Positions 9,182-20,334 of a stretch of DNA of 20,511 nucleotides are shown one piece after another. The number at the start of each line of letters is the position of its first letter. The stretch's first letter is position 1. The stretch is from a virus. The position numbers were made by a program, and so were the translations under genes. Where the stretch lies: positions 489 through 20,999 of IMG/VR virus record IMGVR_UViG_3300022602_000495. One strand, written 5' to 3'. The notes beneath the pieces are model-generated. The model was not told where the DNA came from and searched no databases. It worked only from the letters and a program-made list of their open reading frames with translations.

Positions 9182-9847
9182 ATGAACATACAAGAAAAGC
9201 TTTCTACGATACCAATAAGCATGACTACATTGTCAGCATACACTGGCATTCCACGGGATAGCCTTTATAATTGGAAAGCTGGTAAGGCTGCGCCTAAGAC
9301 TAAGGAATTACTAATTTTAAACGAACTATTTACCAATTTAGAGGGCAAATCAAAAAATGAAATAAGCCTGTACTTAGCCAGCAAAAAACCTAAAGAGGTC
9401 ATTATGTTAGGTAAGCAGGTAGCAACTAACAAAAGTGAAAGTGACTGGGAAGGACTACCAGTATATAACATTCCAATAAGTGCCTCATTTGTTGCCCAGT
9501 ATCATGACATGAATTTCTATCAGCCACTATACCATTTACAAGACCCAAGATTTAAAGATTGTAATTTTGCCAGCATCATAACTGGCGACAGCATGCACAG
9601 TGAAATAAGACACGGTGATTATGTGGTATGCAAAGAAATAAATGACTACAGGTTTATAGTCTTTGGTGACATTTACTATGTAGTAGCGACCAATGGACTT
9701 GAAACATGCAAGTATGTGCACCCTGACAAAAATAACAATGACAATATTTTGCTGGTCCCAAGAAATGAAGCTATACCACCCAGTCCATTGCCTAAAGAGA
9801 TGATCCTGCGGATGTATAAAGTGAAAGGTATTATTAGAGGTTACTAA
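9182..9847 (+). CDS. CI/LexA-like (S24) phage repressor
   Basis: A 221-residue repressor. Residues about 8-50 carry an HTH (MTTLSAYTGIPRDSLYNWKA). The C-terminal half is an S24 LexA-like domain with the nucleophile Ser137 in TGDSMHSEIRHGDYV and the general-base Lys177 in ETCKYV. No clear Ala-Gly or Cys-Gly cleavage dipeptide is seen between the domains (the region reads PVYNIPISASFVAQYHDM), so SOS-triggered self-cleavage is uncertain and the domain may serve mainly in dimerisation. The start ATG at 9182 follows the AT-rich intergenic switch. It is followed after 10 bases by the barrel-protein gene, so both are probably made in the lysogen. Confidence 0.88.
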   Translation: MNIQEKLSTIPISMTTLSAYTGIPRDSLYNWKAGKAAPKTKELLILNELFTNLEGKSKNEISLYLASKKPKEVIMLGKQVATNKSESDWEGLPVYNIPISASFVAQYHDMNFYQPLYHLQDPRFKDCNFASIITGDSMHSEIRHGDYVVCKEINDYRFIVFGDIYYVVATNGLETCKYVHPDKNNNDNILLVPRNEAIPPSPLPKEMILRMYKVKGIIRGY

Positions 9848-9857
9848 ACTTAACTAT

Positions 9858-10412
9858 ATGAAATATTTATTTTTCTTACTGCTGCCATTTGCTGCCAGTA
9901 GCCAAACAATAAAATTGAATGCTGAGGCTGGCTTATCTACCAATAGCGTGAAATACAGCTTCCCAGCTTATAGCGTTGCATTGCCAAACCCTGTGTCTTG
10001 TACTGGCTATACTATTGGCGCGAATGCTGAAATGCCAGTCATAGGAAAAGGAAGCATTATTGCAGGCATCAGCTATCAAGGTTTATACTATGCCAATTAT
10101 CTTGATGCAAATACAGCCGCTACCGATAAAGCAACTTACAGCCTAATGAAAATAAAGGCTGGATATTTACACTACTTTGGAATGTTTAATGCTGGTGCAT
10201 ATCTGTCATACCATGCAGCATTGTCTAAGTCTATTAATTCATTTTTTAGCCCAGCCATTACAGCAGGCATAAGTAAAGGCAGGTATAGAATTAATATTGA
10301 AGCTGGCCTATCATTTGGCAACATGGCACCAAATAATGAAAATTACTCTGTTAATGAAAATATGACCAGCTTTGCGCTATGCTTGAACTATAGCCTTTTC
10401 ACGTTCAAATAA
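9858..10412 (+). CDS. Exported beta-barrel-like outer-membrane protein
   Basis: A 184-residue protein with a clear signal peptide (MKYLFFLLLPFAASSQ, cleavage probably before or after Gln16). The mature part is built of alternating amphipathic strands and glycine-rich turns (AGLSTNSVKYSF, AGISYQGLYYANYL, INIEAGLSFGNMAP) and ends in an aromatic-rich strand finishing Phe-Lys (FALCLNYSLFTFK). This is the pattern of a small 6-8-strand outer-membrane barrel. It sits 10 bases after the repressor in the lysogenic transcript, before the putative attP. Such repressor-linked exported genes are usually lysogenic-conversion or superinfection-exclusion factors; that role here is inference. No specific family recognised. 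Confidence 0.75.
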   Translation: MKYLFFLLLPFAASSQTIKLNAEAGLSTNSVKYSFPAYSVALPNPVSCTGYTIGANAEMPVIGKGSIIAGISYQGLYYANYLDANTAATDKATYSLMKIKAGYLHYFGMFNAGAYLSYHAALSKSINSFFSPAITAGISKGRYRINIEAGLSFGNMAPNNENYSVNENMTSFALCLNYSLFTFK

Positions 10413-10637: not shown

Positions 10638-11858
10638 ATGGCAATTAAACAGGGCTACTCAAAGCCCAAACTCTACGACAGAAATGGTGACATATCAAAA
10701 GAATGGTATGTCGCCTTTAGATTTACAGACCCAGTACAGGACAAGCGCAAACTATTCCAGTATAGATTTGGCATAAACTATCTGCACACCAAGCAAGAAA
10801 GATATATTGAGGGCAATGCCATAACTAACATGCTCACCCGTGCTCTAGAACGAGGCTTTAACCCTTTCAATGATGAACTGGCTGACTACCTGCAAGATGC
10901 AGCCGCTTCAAATGAAGAAAATTTATCACAAATGAGCTTCAATAAGGCTTTAGACTTCGGCCTGCAGAAGAAAAAAGCCAATCTTGCGCCTAAGTCATAC
11001 CTTGACTATGAAAAAGTAAAGAATTTTGCCCAGCGTTCAGCTGAAACTTTGAATATTGGCATCCTACCCGTGTCACTGCTCAAAAGAAAGCATATCAAGC
11101 AGCTACTTGACCAAATGCAAGCAGATAGACAAGCAGCTTATGATAAGGCTGAGAAAGGCAAGATATTCACTGGCAATAACTATAACAAGTATAAACGCTG
11201 CCTACAGGCTATTCTCACAGAGCTATTTGAGTATGATGCTATAGAGTTCAATCCCTGTGACCATATCGGAAAACGCAATGAAATAAGCACCAATGTACAC
11301 CGTCACGCTACAGAGGCAGAAGAACAAATAATAAAAGAGCACCTTAAAGAAGCTCACCCCTACTTTCTCTGCTATGTGGCATTTGAAACACTGGCAGGCA
11401 TAAGGCCAAAAGAACTCCTTGGGCTTCGTGTTGAAGATATAGACTGGCTTAACCAATGCTTTGACATACATGCCACTGAGGGCAGAAGTAAGACCCGTGA
11501 AAGTAGGAAAGTGCCCATACCAAATTCACTGGTACCCTATATCAACCAGTTGGAGCTTGAAAAGTATCAGCCTGATATGTATATATTCAGCGCTGGCTTC
11601 CGCTGTGGGTACAAACGCATGCACAGGAATAGGGCTACAGAGTTATGGAAAACGCTTGTTAAAGATGAATTAGGCATAAATGTCACGCTTTACAGTATGA
11701 AAGGTCTTGGTGGTGAAAAGAAGCGTATGGCAGGCATCTCAGTTGATGCCATACAAAGCCAGTACGGTCACCATAACAGAAGCACTACCAATATCTACCT
11801 GCACAGTGAAAAAGAAAGGATAAACAAGGAAATACGGGATAACACCCCTGACTTTTAA
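10638..11858 (+). CDS. int: Tyrosine recombinase (phage integrase)
   Basis: A 406-residue tyrosine integrase. It has an N-terminal arm-binding-like region, a SAM-like core-binding region (about 95-200) and a catalytic domain. Arg256 in TLAGIRPKELLGLR, a beta-hairpin lysine candidate in KTRESRKVPIP (Lys291), the His pair in YGHHNRSTTNIYLHS (378-379) and the nucleophile Tyr387 are in place. The usual H-x-L-R box is degenerate: the aligned residues read Y-S-M-K (352-355), followed by GLGG instead of H-T. The protein would insert and excise the phage at attP/attB. The start ATG immediately follows the second GTCAATCA pair. An activity cost from the altered box is possible, but related Bacteroidota integrases with Lys in place of the second Arg are familiar to me. 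Confidence 0.9.
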   Translation: MAIKQGYSKPKLYDRNGDISKEWYVAFRFTDPVQDKRKLFQYRFGINYLHTKQERYIEGNAITNMLTRALERGFNPFNDELADYLQDAAASNEENLSQMSFNKALDFGLQKKKANLAPKSYLDYEKVKNFAQRSAETLNIGILPVSLLKRKHIKQLLDQMQADRQAAYDKAEKGKIFTGNNYNKYKRCLQAILTELFEYDAIEFNPCDHIGKRNEISTNVHRHATEAEEQIIKEHLKEAHPYFLCYVAFETLAGIRPKELLGLRVEDIDWLNQCFDIHATEGRSKTRESRKVPIPNSLVPYINQLELEKYQPDMYIFSAGFRCGYKRMHRNRATELWKTLVKDELGINVTLYSMKGLGGEKKRMAGISVDAIQSQYGHHNRSTTNIYLHSEKERINKEIRDNTPDF

Positions 11859-11912: not shown

Positions 11913-12503
11913 CTAACTATTTGCAGGCAATAGCTCTGCTATAGCTGCCTGATAATATTTTGTCCTGACATCAATGCCATTCTCACCACCATTGATATGA
12001 TAGGTTATTCTTTGCACCTTATTCCAAACCTTACCATGATCATCAGTGAAAGTCCAGTCTTCGGGTTGGTCAGCAATTTTATTTAAATTCTTTACTGTTG
12101 TCCATATCCAGCATGCACTTGCAATGCCCAGCTCAGGTGTAGCCACAACATCAGGTGTCACTACCAGCCTATTATCACTATATAGAAAGTGGCTTAGCTT
12201 AGTGTACATATCTCTACCAGTAGCTTGCAGGCCTCCGCGACCTTTAAACTTCTCACCGTCACCAGCATAAACATTTCCAAGGTCTTTGCGACCCTCATAC
12301 TGCTTTCCACTGCTAAGCTCTTCCATCCATTTGAACAAGCCACACTCTTCAAGCACTTGGCTTAGGAAGCCAGCCACCCGTTGAGGTGTATCAATTTGGA
12401 ATTTAGGCATGTACTTATTGAGGTAAGGCAAAAATGTTTCTACTGCCTTATCGCTAATTTGTGGAGCAATGGCTTTCAGCTGCTCCCCTGTTAGTGGGTT
12501 CAT
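11913..12503 (-). CDS. Endolysin, glycoside hydrolase family 19 type
   Basis: A 196-residue lysozyme of the GH19 (chitinase-like) family that cleaves peptidoglycan glycan strands at the end of infection. Diagnostic blocks are QVLEECGLFKWMEEL with catalytic Glu53 (the family often has His-Glu-Ser here; this protein reads Glu52-Glu53-Cys54), the long YEGRKDLGN ... GDGEKFKGRGGLQATGR block (about 69-97), and ITYHINGGENGIDVR near the C terminus. Length is normal for a single-domain phage GH19 enzyme and there is no signal peptide, so holin-dependent release is expected. The gene is last in the late operon and overlaps the upstream membrane-protein gene by four bases (ATGA). Confidence 0.92.
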   Translation of the reverse strand: MNPLTGEQLKAIAPQISDKAVETFLPYLNKYMPKFQIDTPQRVAGFLSQVLEECGLFKWMEELSSGKQYEGRKDLGNVYAGDGEKFKGRGGLQATGRDMYTKLSHFLYSDNRLVVTPDVVATPELGIASACWIWTTVKNLNKIADQPEDWTFTDDHGKVWNKVQRITYHINGGENGIDVRTKYYQAAIAELLPANS

Positions 12504-12868: not shown

Positions 12869-13528
12869 TTAAAATTTGATTAGTGAATATTGAACTGCTA
12901 AACCTACACTAAGGCCAGTGAACCCATACCCTATATATGGTCCTACAGACCAGTGCTTTTTCTTTTCAGTTTGAATAAGTACTCCTTGCAGGCCTACTAC
13001 CTTAGCATTAGGGTTAAGATTGTAAGCATCTATGTAAGTATCATGCTTAAACCAGCCTTTTCCTTTGGCGTAAGTGGTTACTATAATGCTGTCATAGGTC
13101 TTATAGTCAATTACAGCACTGTCACCAATGGTAGCATTTAATTGCAGCCATTTATCATTGTAAGCAATATGCTTTTTGACCTTATCGCCAATTCTTACGG
13201 TATCTGTCATGACAATAATATGGCTACTGTCAACAGTTTTAACTCCAGCTATAGACTTAATGCTTGACTGCTTAATTTTCAAAGCCTTTGCCACACTGTC
13301 AAGCATTTCAGCATATACTTCCTGAGCAGTCTTAAGGTCTGCTTCTGCTATTTGCCTCTGTGCGTGCTCACGGCCTTGCTGGTCTTGGTAGTAGCTTATA
13401 GTATCTACCATAGCAGCCAGCACGTTATCTTTCATTCTTAGCTGGCTGACAGCACTGTTACAGGTTTTTACTGTAACTATTAAGGCAAGAGCCAAAATAG
13501 TCGTTAGGATTGCCAAATATTTATTCAT
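12869..13528 (-). CDS. Membrane-anchored coiled-coil protein with beta-rich C terminus (spanin-like candidate)
   Basis: A 219-residue protein with an N-terminal membrane anchor (YLAILTTILALALIVTVKTC) ending in a Cys, then a coiled coil (about 35-85, GREHAQRQIAEADLKTAQEV), then beta segments with repeated Asp-Thr motifs (DSSHIIVMTDTVRIGD). The last 30 residues (HWSVGPYIGYGFTGLSVGLA and VQYSLIKF) look like an outer-membrane beta-hairpin ending in Phe. An inner-membrane anchor, periplasmic coiled coil and outer-membrane-like end would span the envelope, as a one-protein spanin does. Similar anchor/coiled-coil/beta proteins are common beside endolysins in Bacteroidota phages, with function unassigned. 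The spanin call is inference. Confidence 0.65.
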   Translation of the reverse strand: MNKYLAILTTILALALIVTVKTCNSAVSQLRMKDNVLAAMVDTISYYQDQQGREHAQRQIAEADLKTAQEVYAEMLDSVAKALKIKQSSIKSIAGVKTVDSSHIIVMTDTVRIGDKVKKHIAYNDKWLQLNATIGDSAVIDYKTYDSIIVTTYAKGKGWFKHDTYIDAYNLNPNAKVVGLQGVLIQTEKKKHWSVGPYIGYGFTGLSVGLAVQYSLIKF

Positions 13529-14231: not shown

Positions 14232-14690
14232 TTACCTCAATAGTTTATTATAATTAACATTAAATGTCAAATTCCATGCTGTGCCTGCAATGGCTTCCCA
14301 TAGTATCATATCCCAAACTGGGTGTTTCTTGATTATAGGAAAGTTCTCATGGCATACTACTGAAACAGGTACACATATAAGCACTACCATTGTTGATTTG
14401 CAGAAATGCCACCCATCTATGGGATAACCTGCAATGTGTGGTGAATGGTCGCTGCTGTACCCGTTTTCATGGTTAAAGAATTGTGGGTTGTTAAACTTAG
14501 CAAATAACGATGTATGATAATGGTCGCTCATTTCATCCATAGCACTATTGCATAGGCTTGCACCCATAACGCTGCCACTTATTACAAACGCCTTAATGTC
14601 CTTTTTCTCGCCTAATGTCAATCGGGCATTAGCGTTAAAGCATAAGCAACAAAGCAATATGGTTATTGCGTATTTAATTCCTCTTTCCAT
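14232..14690 (-). CDS. Exported membrane-associated protein, unknown
   Basis: A 152-residue protein with an N-terminal signal peptide (MERGIKYAITILLCCLCFNA, cleavage likely at NANA|R). The mature part has six cysteine or histidine-containing stretches (HSPHIAGYPIDGWHFCK), one probable membrane segment (TMVVLICVPVSVVC) and a C-terminal aromatic region (WEAIAGTAWNLTFNVNYN). The layout recalls small phage membrane proteins with a 'GWH-x-x-K' block, but I cannot name a family. It overlaps the upstream gene by 28 bases. It is the most downstream member of the compositionally distinct segment. Role unknown: surface modification, exclusion and lysis are all possible. Confidence 0.6.
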   Translation of the reverse strand: MERGIKYAITILLCCLCFNANARLTLGEKKDIKAFVISGSVMGASLCNSAMDEMSDHYHTSLFAKFNNPQFFNHENGYSSDHSPHIAGYPIDGWHFCKSTMVVLICVPVSVVCHENFPIIKKHPVWDMILWEAIAGTAWNLTFNVNYNKLLR

Positions 14691-15061
14691 GCTATTGATA
14701 TTTCGGGTGGTAAATTGGCTTTAACCCATTGATAAATGTATTTAGGGTCATCGCCATGCCAATCTGCATATTGAAACGGTACGCATATGCTATCATTATT
14801 AATTACCAAATCATTTCGGTACAATGAAATGCCATTTAAGGTTTCTATGCGTACATGAATTATGGCTTCCGTAACCTCGTTATCATCTGCCTTAACTATC
14901 ATTATGGCATTGATATTGGTTACTGGAAAAAAGGCATTCGTACTTGTAAAAGTACATGGTGCATAGGGCGCATGAATTAAACTATCAGGCTCATGTACGT
15001 TTTGTGCCTTAACGGTGAAAATGCTTGCAACAAGGGCAAGCAAAACAATTAGTTTTTTCAT
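14663..15061 (-). CDS. Small secreted/periplasmic protein, unknown
   Basis: A 132-residue protein with a classical signal peptide (MKKLIVLLALVASIFTVKAQ, cleavage likely at KA|Q, as in many Bacteroidota exported proteins). The mature part is beta-rich and ends acidic (SICVPFQYADWHGDDPKYIY). Its stop overlaps the next gene by 28 bases and its start overlaps the upstream gene by 4 bases (ATGA), giving a tightly coupled trio. No family recognised. In a late phage operon an exported small protein could reach the periplasm or outer membrane before lysis. Confidence 0.68.
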   Translation of the reverse strand: MKKLIVLLALVASIFTVKAQNVHEPDSLIHAPYAPCTFTSTNAFFPVTNINAIMIVKADDNEVTEAIIHVRIETLNGISLYRNDLVINNDSICVPFQYADWHGDDPKYIYQWVKANLPPEISIAWKEELNTQ

Positions 15062-15483
15062 TTCTTTTTGTGTGGTTTTTGTTGAGGAATTATTTTTTTC
15101 AAACTGTCAAATTCTCTATTCAAGGTTTCAATGATGTATGTTTGGTACTTTATCACGCTATCTGTTGGTTGTTGGTAAAGTCCTTGCGTTAATTGAATTA
15201 TCGGTGCTGCGGTTTTAAATGGCAATTCAGCTACATATTTTTCCAATGCATCTAATTGCTTTGCGTACACTACAAAACTTTCAGTTTTTGGATGCTGTTG
15301 CGCTGCTAATTTTGCTTTGGCATCTTGCACACTATCCATATAATGTTGCAGCACTTCGGGCGAACTGAATGTTATCTTACTTGTGTAATGCACCGTATCA
15401 GGTTTAATCTCATAAGATTGAGCATTACAAAATGTTGCTGTTACTGTCAGCATCAGTGTCATTAGGAAAAGTTTAATTTTCAT
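15058..15483 (-). CDS. Exported helical protein, unknown
   Basis: A 141-residue protein with a signal peptide (MKIKLFLMTLMLTVTATFCN then AQ; cleavage near NA|Q). The mature part is mainly helical and polar (SPEVLQHYMDSVQDAKAKLA, FVVYAKQLDALEKYVAEL) and ends in a strongly basic tail (QQKPHKKK). It follows the fiber gene by 20 bases and is coupled to the next gene by a four-base overlap. A periplasmic or surface-associated chaperone for the fiber is one possibility, but no family is recognised. Confidence 0.68.
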   Translation of the reverse strand: MKIKLFLMTLMLTVTATFCNAQSYEIKPDTVHYTSKITFSSPEVLQHYMDSVQDAKAKLAAQQHPKTESFVVYAKQLDALEKYVAELPFKTAAPIIQLTQGLYQQPTDSVIKYQTYIIETLNREFDSLKKIIPQQKPHKKK

Positions 15484-15503: not shown

Positions 15504-17591
15504 TTAATTGCCTACCATTAATTTGTATGTTGTACCACCTATTGATACTGTTACATATCCGACCTGCGTCAAAGAACCTGCGGTATATCCAGTTGTTGCC
15601 AATACGCTATTCCATGCACCGTTCAACCTTAACATGCGCTGCTTATTGGTATTATCATGCACTTCCAATCCCTCAATTGGAGATGCTATTGCATTTAATT
15701 GTGTATTAGTCATTGCAGGCACTAAGAAACCTTTTGTGGTACTAAATATTTGAACCAATGCAGATGCATCATTTGTTCCTACATCATTACCGATTGAAAA
15801 ACCCGATGTCCTATTGAACGATTGGTAGGTTGAAAATGTCCTAAACCACGAATAGCCTAATTGTGTTGAGAATGCACCGCCATCATAAAAACGCCAACCA
15901 TCACCAACACATGCAGCATAAGTATTATTACTAACCCCACCATCTATCATTATAGCAGAACCCGATTTTACAACCACATTTCCGCTTGAATCAACTGTAA
16001 ATTTAGCTGCTGTTGCCGCACCATAAATGCCGAATGTGTTTGCTGTATTTGTGGCAACTATTCCAAATCTATATGATTTATCTGTTGTACTGCCTATAGT
16101 CCAATCTCCTGTACTCGCATTTATAGAACCTCTTGAACCACCTATATTAAATGTTAAGCCTGCCATTATGTTACCAAAGTCCAAATAAGACGATGAAGAT
16201 GCGCCTACAACTCCACCACTTGAATAAATGCCACCATATTGGTCAATATATGCTTTTTGTAAACCGTTGGTTTTAAATGATGCTAAATTGTTTGTCCAGC
16301 CACTTGGTGCATTCAATAACATTGCACCATTAATTCCTAATATGCTTGCCGCATTTCTTGTCAATGTCAAATCAGGTGTATTTATTTGCCCAGTAAGTGA
16401 ACCCCAACCGATTTGATAATCTGCTGCTAAATCAATACCCGTTGCATAAGCATTACCATTGTCTAATGCAATGGCTGTTTGTGTACCTGCACCATTGTAT
16501 AATCTAACAGTTTTATATACTGAAACATTACCGTTAAATTTACCGTTGCCCCATGTTCTATCATTAAGGGTATCAGGCAATCCTGCATATGTGCTGCTTA
16601 TTGCTTTCCATTTAATACTATCCGTTGAATAATCATAATACCCTACATATCCATTCATTGCGCTTGTTGGTGTCATTACTCCTTTGCCCTCAATTCCTTT
16701 TATCGTAAATGCACCCGTATTGCTCATGTTAGCATCACCACTTATTGAAAACCAATTTGTGCCTACCATTCCCCTTATTGGTATATTGCCATTGCTACCC
16801 CTATCACGAACATAACCGCCTAACATTGTGGATGTGTCGCTGTAGTTCACCTTATACCCAAACCTTGTGCCTAATGTTGCTGTATCGGTATTTAATGCCG
16901 CTAAATTGTTTTTATAATTTAATAGCATGTTTGATGTGTCGCCCTGTCCTATATAAGTAGGTGTCCAGTTATGCCATTTGCTGTCACTGCTTTGGTATTG
17001 TAATATTTGCCCATTAGTAGGACTACTTATGTTAGCATCTGTAAGGGCACTCAAACTGGTGACTGTAGGTATAGTCCAGCTTCTATCTGCACTGAGGTCT
17101 AACTGGGTGCCGTTAATAGTCAATTTTCTTGTTAGAGGTACAAAGGTGCTCTGTCCCCAGTAGTGTGTCGCTATGCGCGAAGTATCAGGCACACCATTGT
17201 TAGCATTGAAAAAGGTCTTTGTTACATAAATACCGCTATCATCTAATGTCAATACATAACGCTTCTTAGTGCTATCAAAGTAAGTCAAACGCTTAGTTCT
17301 AATATCTACACCTAAATCACCATACTTCGCATTGGTCATGCTGTCAAAATAGATAGGCTGGAGCAATAAGCCTTTCTTGCCACCATAGACACCTAAGTCA
17401 AGTAAAGCACTGCTGTCAGGGTTTGTGTCTGCATTCTTACCTATAGCCATTCTACCCCATATCCTTATAGGGTCATACCTTAAAGACTGCTGGGCAAACG
17501 TATTGCTAAAAGCAAATAGAAGCATGAATGCTAAACTTAAGCCTGCAAGTCTATTTTTTAATTGCTCAATTATGATCTGTAGCTTTTTCAT
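15504..17591 (-). CDS. Large fiber-like / receptor-binding protein with an N-terminal signal peptide
   Basis: A 695-residue protein. Residues 1-33 are a typical signal peptide: basic start, hydrophobic LAGLSLAFMLLFAF, then FAQ. After that come short repetitive beta-rich segments typical of phage tail fibers: LTINGTQLDLSADRSWTIP (about 160), NGQILQYQSSDSKWHNWTP (about 200), SGDANMSNTGAFTIKGIEGK, and a C-terminal block (SPIEGLEVHDNTNKQRMLRL then NGAWNSV) followed by GYVTVSIGGTTYKLMVGN. There is no S74 chaperone domain. This points to a trimeric adhesin or fiber that recognises the host surface. The signal peptide is unusual for a virion protein. The N-terminal third shares the composition of the flanking phage genes, while the rest differs. 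It could instead be a secreted or surface adhesin carried by the phage. Confidence 0.72.
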   Translation of the reverse strand: MKKLQIIIEQLKNRLAGLSLAFMLLFAFSNTFAQQSLRYDPIRIWGRMAIGKNADTNPDSSALLDLGVYGGKKGLLLQPIYFDSMTNAKYGDLGVDIRTKRLTYFDSTKKRYVLTLDDSGIYVTKTFFNANNGVPDTSRIATHYWGQSTFVPLTRKLTINGTQLDLSADRSWTIPTVTSLSALTDANISSPTNGQILQYQSSDSKWHNWTPTYIGQGDTSNMLLNYKNNLAALNTDTATLGTRFGYKVNYSDTSTMLGGYVRDRGSNGNIPIRGMVGTNWFSISGDANMSNTGAFTIKGIEGKGVMTPTSAMNGYVGYYDYSTDSIKWKAISSTYAGLPDTLNDRTWGNGKFNGNVSVYKTVRLYNGAGTQTAIALDNGNAYATGIDLAADYQIGWGSLTGQINTPDLTLTRNAASILGINGAMLLNAPSGWTNNLASFKTNGLQKAYIDQYGGIYSSGGVVGASSSSYLDFGNIMAGLTFNIGGSRGSINASTGDWTIGSTTDKSYRFGIVATNTANTFGIYGAATAAKFTVDSSGNVVVKSGSAIMIDGGVSNNTYAACVGDGWRFYDGGAFSTQLGYSWFRTFSTYQSFNRTSGFSIGNDVGTNDASALVQIFSTTKGFLVPAMTNTQLNAIASPIEGLEVHDNTNKQRMLRLNGAWNSVLATTGYTAGSLTQVGYVTVSIGGTTYKLMVGN

Positions 17592-17592
17592 A

Positions 17593-17847
17593 TTACCAGC
17601 GATTGTCTTTACATTTTTCTTCTTTAACTAATGTCTTTTCATTTATCGGGCACCCACATAGACCACATTTTACAGCAGCTATATTGTGCCCATTGCCTCG
17701 TAAGAACTTTAAGAAACTGCTACTCTTAGCATGAGGACAAGCAGTGCATATCATAATTCTTTCTTGGCTTCTTATTTTATCTTCTTTGCTTGCTTCTATA
17801 AGGTTTAAGGTCTTAGCCCACCCTATAGCTATATGCTTTAAGTTCAT
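17593..17847 (-). CDS. Small Cys-rich (zinc-ribbon-like) phage protein
   Basis: The start is set at the ATG at 17847, which shares a base with the stop of the upstream gene (TAATG). The longer frame to 17910 only re-reads that gene. The 84-residue protein has Cys34-x2-Cys37 in ICTACPH, Cys61-x2-Cys64-x-Cys66 in KCGLCGCPI, then Lys71 and a final Cys79 ... Trp84 (KCKDNRW). This is the layout of small Bacteroidota phage proteins in which C-x-x-C-G-C-P-x-x-x-K is followed by C-x4-W. Zinc binding is likely. Its place between structural genes suggests a role in assembly or a late regulatory function; neither is proven. Confidence 0.75.
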   Translation of the reverse strand: MNLKHIAIGWAKTLNLIEASKEDKIRSQERIMICTACPHAKSSSFLKFLRGNGHNIAAVKCGLCGCPINEKTLVKEEKCKDNRW

Positions 17848-18923
17848 TATAATTTCTTCTTTAGTGTTAGTATGCATCTTAAAGGAGTGCTCGGTGCTGG
17901 AGTTATCCATGTCACTTTGTTGTCCTGTAAGGGTTTTGCATTCATGTCCCCGTCGTCAGTACCGATAAATAATTCAGTACCCTCCATTGACATGTTTATA
18001 AGCTCAGCGCCTACGAAATAGTTATTTAGTTCTTGGTAGTTGCTTTCACTGCCAGTAGGATATTGCTGCTGGCCTGCCACAGTTGTAAACTGGAAACGTT
18101 TTATATCATAGCCCATTTGTGTCGGGGATGTTGTAGTGGCGTTAAAATCAAAAAACGGTCTTTTTACTAAAGGCCAGTCCTCATTTATTTCTTTAGACCT
18201 ATGCCTATGTGGGTATATATCCATAAGCATGTCAGTCTTACCCTGTGTGGCTACACCCCTCTCACGTTCACTGTGTGGCCTATCACCTAAGCAGCTTTCG
18301 CATATCTTAAAGTAATTTGGATATAGTGTAGGGTCAACGTATTTCTTTTCACATAACCAAGCGTGCATTGAAGCTTGAAGTGGTGCAATACGTTCTTTCA
18401 TAATGCTTGAAAGTTTATACTGCACATCCTTTGCGCTTCCTGTGCCGCTTCCTTTACCGTCACTGCCTATAGTAATAGGGTTATTACTCTGCTGGCCTTG
18501 TGCCGTATGCTGGAGCCATGAGGGCACAGTAGTCATGGCATCTACAGCCTCAGCGCATAGCCTCCATAAGAAACGCTGCCATAGATTTACATAATCAACA
18601 TTAGTGACATACTCTATAGCGTTGACCCATGTGCCAATAGGCAACTGGGTACTGGTTATGGTTTGCTTACTAGCAGCAGCCAGTGAAGCATTAATTAAAG
18701 CTAATTGGTCTGCTTGATTATCAGAGGTTATCTGCACGTTTTTCATGCCTATAAGCTCCTCATAGAATGTATTACCTATAGCCTGCACAATAAACCGTTC
18801 TTCAGCCACCTCAATATTTTGCAAGACAAGCCTAATATTGACATCTTGGTCTGTAGGTGCTTTAGCTACAAACTCGTCAACTGTCAATAAGACTGGCCTA
18901 CCAGTATAATTAATTCTGTACAT
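17847..18923 (-). CDS. Head-tail connector-position structural protein (DUF6712-like)
   Basis: A 358-residue protein immediately after the portal gene (14-base overlap). The N-terminal region (LLTVDEFVAKAPTDQDVNIR, later VQAIGNTFYEEL) resembles uncharacterised Bacteroidota phage structural proteins of the DUF6712 type, which are thought to occupy the head-completion or connector position. The middle contains a Gly/Ser linker (GSDGKGSGTGSAKD) and a segment with Cys (CESCLGDRP). The C-terminal region is beta-rich (NYFVGAELINMSMEGTELFI). No enzyme motif is seen. The family match is from memory of the N-terminal pattern; the connector role comes from gene order. Confidence 0.6.
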   Translation of the reverse strand: MYRINYTGRPVLLTVDEFVAKAPTDQDVNIRLVLQNIEVAEERFIVQAIGNTFYEELIGMKNVQITSDNQADQLALINASLAAASKQTITSTQLPIGTWVNAIEYVTNVDYVNLWQRFLWRLCAEAVDAMTTVPSWLQHTAQGQQSNNPITIGSDGKGSGTGSAKDVQYKLSSIMKERIAPLQASMHAWLCEKKYVDPTLYPNYFKICESCLGDRPHSERERGVATQGKTDMLMDIYPHRHRSKEINEDWPLVKRPFFDFNATTTSPTQMGYDIKRFQFTTVAGQQQYPTGSESNYQELNNYFVGAELINMSMEGTELFIGTDDGDMNAKPLQDNKVTWITPAPSTPLRCILTLKKKL

Positions 18924-20334
18924 TATTCGGCTTGTTTGGGTTATTGTTTGGCTGGTTATTGTCTTGCTTAGGTGCAGCAGCTTTTATAAACTGCTCACCA
19001 CGTTCACCCTCTATAGGTGTTAAGCCTGCAATAGCTCTACCCTCATTGACTTTGGTAATGCTATTGATGTCTATATCACCTAAGAAAGTAACAGGTAACA
19101 CACTCTGTAGTGAAATATCATACTGGCTCCATTTGGTGCCCATCCACTGGTCACATATTTGCATCAATGGCTTTATGAATTTCTTAATGACATATTCTTG
19201 CTGTGGTTTGATAGTAGTATTATTGGCAATGTCAAATATGCTCCTTATGTAAGAGCTACCAGCACTGCCAAGACCACTTTTTTTATCAATGCCACATAAA
19301 TAGCCTGACCAGTTATTCGCAGCAACAATCTTGTCCTGTATATGCTGGTCCAGCTCAATGAAGCTGCCCTGCTGGTCACGGTTGAAAGGCACTATATCGC
19401 TTTTCTCAATTCCACCCTGTGAGCTAAGTATAACCCACTTGCCTCTTTGCCCATCACCTGAGTGCTGGAAGACAATATCCTTACCTATTTTCCTTGCTTC
19501 TTCATCTGTGAGATTGCCTTTAATAAGCATCATACCGCCTATTTCAAGGTTATTCTCAAAGTTGTCTATATTGAACCTTGCGGCTTGATATTCCAAAATT
19601 TGCTCAGGTAAGCTGCTGACATTGCTTGGCATACCGTAATAGTCATAACCACTTATTTTATTTTTCAAGTGGAATATGGTATGCTCGAAGCCGTCATCGG
19701 ACTTTACCCAAGGATTGTCAAAGGTGTTGAAGCTATGTAAAGGCACAGTCATGTAACTGCCCTTATTCATGTTCCATACGCCCTCACGCCTAAATTCTTT
19801 GCTTATGATCACAAAGGAAGGCTCGTCAAAATCTTCATCGGGTCTATTAAGCCTACAGTCTAAAACTGAACGCATAAAGACCTTAACAAACTTTTTGCCA
19901 CCCACTGCACCACGAACTACCTCTACATAGGCATTCCCCAGTGTAAATAAGTTCTCAAATATGTCACATAGTACATTATTCAAATCGTCATTGTGGTTGA
20001 CAGCAGCAGCCCATTCTGTAAGCAGCTTATCTTCTTTCTTGTCTTTAATGAACCAGCCTTTACCGATACAATACTGCACCTTTGAAGTAATGCAGGCCAC
20101 TGTAGTTGGTGAAAGGGTTTTAGCTTCCAGCAATATTCTTGGGAAGTTGTCGCGTGGGTTTAAGAAAGGTATGTATTTATGACCCGTATGGGAAACAAAT
20201 ATCCTACTCCTATATTCAATAGGAATAGGATTAGTAGGGTCTAATCTAACGGCATTGGAAATTGTGCGGCCTTTGGCACTCTTAGAGGTTGCAGGCTTAG
20301 CTTTAGGTACTTCCTTTCCAAGTTTGTTAGACAT
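18910..20334 (-). CDS. Phage portal protein
   Basis: A 474-residue portal protein, the dodecameric ring through which DNA enters the capsid. Supporting stretches are FTLGNAYVEVVRGAVGGKKF (about 150), the YGMPSNVSSLPEQILEYQAA helix (about 235), NIDNFENNLEIGGMMLIKG, and the later IFDIANNTTIKPQQEYVIKK followed by FIKPLMQICDQW, the usual order for phage portals of the HK97 or PBSX/XkdE type. The N terminus is basic and Ser/Lys-rich. The C terminus is a flexible Asn/Pro/Gln-rich tail. Length is typical (about 450-550). The gene starts 55 bases after the stop of the unidentified gene at the window edge. Confidence 0.88.
   Translation of the reverse strand: MSNKLGKEVPKAKPATSKSAKGRTISNAVRLDPTNPIPIEYRSRIFVSHTGHKYIPFLNPRDNFPRILLEAKTLSPTTVACITSKVQYCIGKGWFIKDKKEDKLLTEWAAAVNHNDDLNNVLCDIFENLFTLGNAYVEVVRGAVGGKKFVKVFMRSVLDCRLNRPDEDFDEPSFVIISKEFRREGVWNMNKGSYMTVPLHSFNTFDNPWVKSDDGFEHTIFHLKNKISGYDYYGMPSNVSSLPEQILEYQAARFNIDNFENNLEIGGMMLIKGNLTDEEARKIGKDIVFQHSGDGQRGKWVILSSQGGIEKSDIVPFNRDQQGSFIELDQHIQDKIVAANNWSGYLCGIDKKSGLGSAGSSYIRSIFDIANNTTIKPQQEYVIKKFIKPLMQICDQWMGTKWSQYDISLQSVLPVTFLGDIDINSITKVNEGRAIAGLTPIEGERGEQFIKAAAPKQDNNQPNNNPNKPNNVQN

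Follow-up and report, generated by a model that had tools for sequence, protein, structure and literature searches.

The window, that is, the whole stretch of 20,511 nucleotides that we analysed, comprises nearly all of a 20,999-base record from a virus of Bacteroidota (IMG/VR IMGVR_UViG_3300022602_000495, positions 489 to 20,999). On its minus strand we found, in this order, genes for a portal protein, an adaptor-like protein, a Cys-rich protein, a fibre-like protein, three small signal-like proteins, membrane proteins, a DUF6549 protein and an endolysin (Table 1). The fibre gene lies among late structural genes of one strand, with portal and adaptor upstream and endolysin downstream, and a gap of one base separates its start from the stop of the Cys-rich gene. 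The DUF6549 protein would, from its position, be spanin-like. The three small secreted-looking proteins between the fibre and lysis genes (14232-15483, minus strand) gave no convincing family match; they could help the fibre to cross the outer membrane or hold it there. On the plus strand, a 184-aa protein (9858-10412) with a signal peptide (SS/Q; a slash marks the predicted cut) and barrel-like text is encoded directly behind a repressor-like gene (9182-9847, plus strand) and is a candidate surface or superinfection-exclusion protein.

Table 1. Features of the window, with positions counted from its first nucleotide
Feature	Position	Strand	Basis
Portal protein	18910..20334	-	PHROG portal 1.8e-9; Pfam Phage_portal 3.8e-7, below family cut-off
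Head-tail adaptor-like protein, 358 aa	17847..18923	-	called by position
Cys-rich protein, 105 aa, slot marker, next upstream of the fibre gene	17593..17910	-	41% identity to L003:12082-12414
Fibre-like protein, 695 aa	15504..17591	-	ATG start; ORF coordinates confirmed exactly
Signal peptide, codons 1-33, predicted cut A33/Q34	17493..17591	-	sequence, rule-based call
66-aa module 'GIGTTTPDASALLD...GLLVPRMT...' (GIGTTTPDASA module), aa 600-665	15597..15794	-	HMM, 104 bits, which includes self, the HMM being built from 13 instances and the window segment itself
141-aa protein, signal peptide, +1 Q (NA/Q)	15058..15483	-	sequence, signal rule
132-aa protein, signal peptide, +1 Q (KA/Q)	14663..15061	-	sequence, signal rule
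152-aa protein, signal-like N-terminus	14232..14690	-	sequence
DUF6549 protein, lysis block	12869..13528	-	Pfam PF20186 8.1e-11
Endolysin	11913..12503	-	PHROG endolysin 7.8e-40
Integrase	10638-11858	+	

The first-pass annotation had called the 695-aa protein fibre-like. This label is supported, but no curated family stands behind it: Pfam and NCBIfam gave zero matches at E 0.1, and PHROGs gave unnamed families only (best 6.5e-4), with no match to a curated tail-fibre family. The Pfam and NCBIfam searches revealed neither an enzyme domain nor a type IX (T9SS) C-terminal sorting domain, and a lipobox is absent, residues 1-45 being free of Cys. Residues 177-219 match a repeated stretch in a Bacteroidota ORF. 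AlphaFold2, run without an alignment on the mature protein, gave a mean pLDDT of 32, and the model was not used.

Scans with portal and adaptor for relatives of the window returned L002 and L003 only. In L003, the portal is 50% identical to that of the window and the gene order is the same; the place of the fibre is taken by a 155-aa protein with a signal (TAQA/Q) and no BLAST similarity to the window fibre. In L006, the Cys-rich gene and two small genes precede a 1415-aa GDSL-containing fibre with a signal (VQG/Q) and no detectable overall similarity to the window fibre; next come a 428-aa polysaccharide lyase, also with a signal (PF14099, 1.4e-27), and then lysis-like genes. A signal-bearing protein was found in or near the slot in three of the five records that have it, the window included. 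Because the slot proteins of L002 and L005 carry no signal, virions of this group do not require an exported slot protein. L007-L009 have the Cys marker alone in common with the window, in other surroundings, and L010 ends at the marker. Fibre relatives by sequence were found neither in viral contigs nor in L002, L003 and the records of L005, L006 and L010; two huge-phage records matched the fibre over 67 residues of the module. As a separate observation, L003 (7214-9019) encodes three signal-bearing proteins with +1 Q and common text between its major-capsid-like and portal genes, inside the head module.

The signal peptide and the Bacteroidota homologues

The N-terminus of the fibre-like protein reads MKKLQIIIEQLKNRLAGLSLAFMLLFAFSNTFA up to the predicted cut and QQSLRYDP behind it, with a basic n-region, an uncharged hydrophobic core of 14 residues and T-F-A ahead of the Q. 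The features of a Q-rule substrate of Sec and signal peptidase I are present, namely n-, h- and c-region, Ala at -1 and Gln at +1. The first-pass annotation had described a signal peptide ending in FAQ; the signal is there, but the cut is predicted before the Q of this motif and not after it. According to Bochtler et al. (PMC5837995), cleavage by signal peptidase I in Bacteroidetes leaves Gln exposed on most substrates. Codon 48 of the fibre gene, shortly after the signal, is a further in-frame ATG.

Signal peptides were called by a rule (charge, hydrophobicity and an AxA-like site), not by SignalP. On internal windows of the fibre-like protein, the rule fired on 22 of 540. When the first 45 residues were shuffled, 9.4% of the shuffles still passed the rule and 2.8% passed it together with a Q site; these shuffles pass because the hydrophobic composition stays, and this composition is itself the signal. 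Among ORFs of at least 120 aa, the rule with a Q site was passed by 5 of 24 in the window (12869-13528 being doubtful), but by none of 185 from five further loci of Cellulophaga phages and none of 102 from three loci of unrelated phages. Among 21 different N-termini taken from fibre-block proteins, several of them closely related and all judged by a loose site rule, 18 had a Q cleavage site, compared with 5.5 on average and never more than 14 in 2000 shuffles. Export of the fibre-like protein is well supported by these sequence features, and we infer that it would proceed through Sec, with cleavage by signal peptidase I.

Matches to the fibre at E 1e-5 were found in 24 of 296 Bacteroidota genomes, nearly all over residues ~590-690, which hold the module, and the others over residues 177-299. 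Counting from the first Met or from an alternative one, the rule called a signal in 17 of 20 fetched module loci (ten of them L025, L030-L032, L034, L035, L038, L040, L042 and L043, and the other seven, from a wider fetch, L052, L053, L055, L056, L058, L059 and L060); among those with no call, L041 and L057 are truncated at an edge, and no signal was seen in L054. The first-pass annotation had held that homologues consistently lacking the hydrophobic N-terminus would refute its reading, and the homologues collected here mostly have one. The module loci encode mainly bacterial secreted proteins, which resemble the window fibre in the module and the signal peptide but differ from it in that the module usually stands directly behind the signal and phage context is mostly not visible. 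Separately, Flavobacterium phage FCL-2 (L063, 45363-45806) encodes a small signal-peptide protein, followed by GIATTTPTETLDVNG text that resembles host secreted proteins.

Export signals in the fibre blocks of other phages and prophages

The first-pass annotation took virion proteins to be normally free of export signals, and this fails for some Bacteroidota phages, as seen in the MS-noted fibres and pectate lyases of phi10:1, phi19:1 and phi18:3. In five Cellulophaga phages, 11 of 38 MS-noted virion proteins carry a signal, every one in the fibre/pectate-lyase block; virion status here means a GenBank MS/MS note, which leaves contamination of the preparations unjudged, and the count covers MS-noted proteins seen in full (the phi19:1, phi18:3 and phi4:1 records in part, with phi4:1 gp051 and gp042 excluded). 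The signal-bearing proteins of phi10:1 (4 of 12) are gp091, gp092, gp093 (pectate lyase) and gp094 (tail fibre), all with +1 Q and with the note 'experimental MS/MS proteomics'. The corresponding counts are 4 of 7 in phi19:1 (gp101-gp104, gp104 without the Q), 3 of 3 in phi18:3 (gp085-gp087), 0 of 7 in phi4:1 and 0 of 9 in phi18:1. No signal was found on MS-noted head, connector, tape-measure or baseplate proteins of the Cellulophaga phages.

Phage phi10:1 gp092 matches its relatives from residue 68 onward only, and the N-termini of this family differ between phi10:1, phi19:1/Nekkels_1 and phi19:3/phi18:3, each with its own signal. Because the signal sits on three different N-termini, what is kept is the export signal and not an N-terminal domain. 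As in the window, large signal-bearing fibre-block proteins, mostly with +1 Q, are encoded upstream of lysis genes in phi10:1, phi19:1, Nekkels_1 (Assiduviridae), phi19:3 and phi18:3 (Pachyviridae); since the search for these five phages went from one to another, they cannot be counted as independent. The Cellulophaga fibre genes follow tape measure and baseplate or form a separate late block, whereas the window gene follows portal and adaptor and is not beside a tape measure. Similarity of the window fibre to MS-noted proteins was not detectable beyond a weak module match: in a small search, the module HMM matched phi19:1 gp101 (E 4.4e-5), just behind its signal, and Nekkels_1 gp53 (4.9e-4), both weakly. 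The majority of the Bacteroidota phages examined have no signal on large structural genes; none was found on those of phi18:1, phi12:1, phi17:1 and the examined parts of phi38:1, phi17:2 and phi4:1, nor on those of phages 11b, B40-8 and FCL-2.

Passages of Bartlau et al. (2021; PMC8776804) report signalling peptides on the lyases of Nekkels and Ingeline; particle assembly is not discussed there. A survey of phage DGR proteins (PMC6199706) reports that signal peptides are missing from the phage versions. Within a partial coverage of the literature, we found nothing that links export signals to virion fibres of tailed phages.

A fibre with a signal was also found in a prophage tail module. In the G179 prophage (L060 and L064), tail tube, tape-measure and baseplate-like genes, assigned by order and PHROG tail matches, are followed by a 129-aa anchor-like gene and then by a fibre of 621 aa (L060:3516-5381) with a signal, a GDSL domain (3.8e-15), a tail-fibre PHROG match (2.7e-10) and a C-terminal 66-aa module. 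Like the window fibre, this protein has +1 Q behind its signal peptide and carries the module at the C-terminal end, but it has a GDSL esterase domain and the mutual similarity is confined to the module. A search of 299 genomes for its orthologues returned G179 itself and no other.

We then considered a survey anchored on phrog_38413, which gave 13 matches in 11 of 395 genomes and 12 tail modules, namely G179 and 11 stretches. Exported fibre-like genes behind a short signal-less anchor were present in 3 of the 12 (G179, G096 and G131); in G211 (first module), G282 and G250, alignment showed that a longer signal-less protein begins with the same anchor sequence. In G290, no exported fibre follows a 209-aa anchor protein, none was seen in G603, G611 and G093, the second G211 module is counted among those with no assigned exported fibre, and G599 (L080) ends before any fibre. 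By locus, the tail anchor and a longer signal-less protein form a fusion in L079, L081 and L089, and the anchor is free-standing before exported fibres in L060, L083 and L084. Two candidates were dropped: L085:6380-8725 is a mechanosensitive channel, and the signal-bearing genes of L082 resemble, by eye, what we take to be bacterial protease lipoproteins.

The adaptor-like protein of the window has about 110 additional C-terminal residues, which are missing from its 223-aa and 246-aa relatives (L002, L003) and are a candidate docking part for the fibre. About 85 C-terminal residues are common to signal-less genes just before exported fibres in L006, L083 and L084 (pairwise E 1e-6 and 6e-6). 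A search for this domain found no others among 395 genomes and one new viral locus, L093, in which no signal-bearing gene follows the docking-like domain. Because an exported fibre is found behind it in 0 of 1 new cases, the idea of a shared docking domain is not used as proof. The same viral contig (L093, 4513-6910) has a gene that looks by eye like a reverse transcriptase, together with two small, related proteins that are similar to the C-terminal domain of the anchor.

Proposed assembly of an exported fibre and competing readings

On the observed signal, Q-rule site, late-operon position, homologue signals and MS-noted signals we base a reading to which we give about even chances, namely that the protein is a receptor-binding fibre which Sec exports and signal peptidase I processes, and which is added to the particle during lysis or later. 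The fibre would not be assembled in the cytoplasm; its chain would be exported by Sec, signal peptidase I would cut between A33 and Q34, and the new Gln would probably be cyclised by the host glutaminyl cyclase. Folding would take place in the periplasm or beyond. The lysis genes just downstream would open the cell, and the fibre would then meet the finished particle and bind a docking protein on it that is made in the cytoplasm. Attachment to the virion of the window phage would be expected by analogy with the MS/MS notes of distant phages. The three options of the first-pass annotation (a fibre exported and attached outside the cytoplasm, an adhesin placed on the host surface, or a receptor blocker in late infection) form the right set, and the MS-noted virion fibres with signals favour the first, short of proof for the window phage. 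A dual product is possible.

The main rival, a serious one that we rate as rather unlikely, is that the protein stays outside the particle and is secreted by the infected or lysogenic host cell or displayed on its surface, where it would serve as a coat, an adhesin or a receptor-occupying decoy against further phages or progeny. Because the 66-aa module occurs mostly in bacterial secreted proteins with signals, the surface-protein reading is equally well suited to it; the three small neighbours also look secreted, and the integrase points to a temperate phage. Passages of Matrishin et al. (2023; PMC10367356) interpret Q-rule proteins of Porphyromonas gingivalis prophages, whose function is unknown, as outer-membrane modifiers; these are phage genes under the Q-rule like that of the window, but they are not described as fibres in those passages. 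Several findings argue against a surface role. The window gene lies in the late structural and lysis block and not beside the repressor, the prophage GDSL fibre of the same layout sits behind baseplate genes, MS-noted virion counterparts exist in Cellulophaga phages, and the window protein shows no lipobox and no T9SS sorting domain. Phage T5 encodes Llp, a small receptor-blocking lipoprotein. Llp resembles the window protein as a phage-made exported protein acting at the surface, but the latter is a 695-aa fibre-like chain without a lipobox.

A further reading, which we regard as improbable, is that the N-terminus is an uncleaved anchor or trimer plug of a cytoplasmic fibre, or that a start at the codon-48 ATG makes a second, cytoplasmic form. 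The position of this ATG just behind the signal fits such a start, and classical phage fibres are built in the cytoplasm. However, the cleavage-site Q found in 18 of 21 N-termini would be needless for an uncleaved anchor, and no in-frame ATG is present in codons 30-60 of the L006 and L003 genes, phi10:1 gp091, gp093 and gp094, phi19:1 gp103 and phi18:3 gp085 and gp087. Least probable in our judgement is that lysis sets the protein free as a depolymerase or a polysaccharide binder that opens capsule or biofilm for the progeny: relatives pair fibres with signal-bearing polysaccharide lyase, GDSL esterase, pectate lyase and beta-helix proteins, but no enzyme domain was detected in the window protein, and such enzymes carry virion MS/MS notes in Cellulophaga phages.

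The preferred reading remains a receptor-binding fibre that joins the particle at or after lysis. In the textbook account, tailed phages are assembled in the cytoplasm until lysis. We tentatively propose, with chances that we set a little below even, that several unrelated lineages of Bacteroidota tailed phages use a two-compartment assembly, in which heads and tails would be cytoplasmic, fibres and depolymerases would be secretory, and the two pools would be joined at lysis. The secretory fibres and depolymerases would be matured by host signal peptidase and glutaminyl cyclase, and a switch may lie between a short cytoplasmic anchor with separate exported fibres (G179, G096, G131) and an anchor-fused signal-less fibre (G211, G282, G250). 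If this is true of a widespread group of Bacteroidota phages, fibre-less particles should occur inside cells, and annotators who discard 'secreted' genes as non-virion would have reason for caution. Host range, particle completion and receptor blocking would then depend on host Sec, signal peptidase and glutaminyl cyclase.
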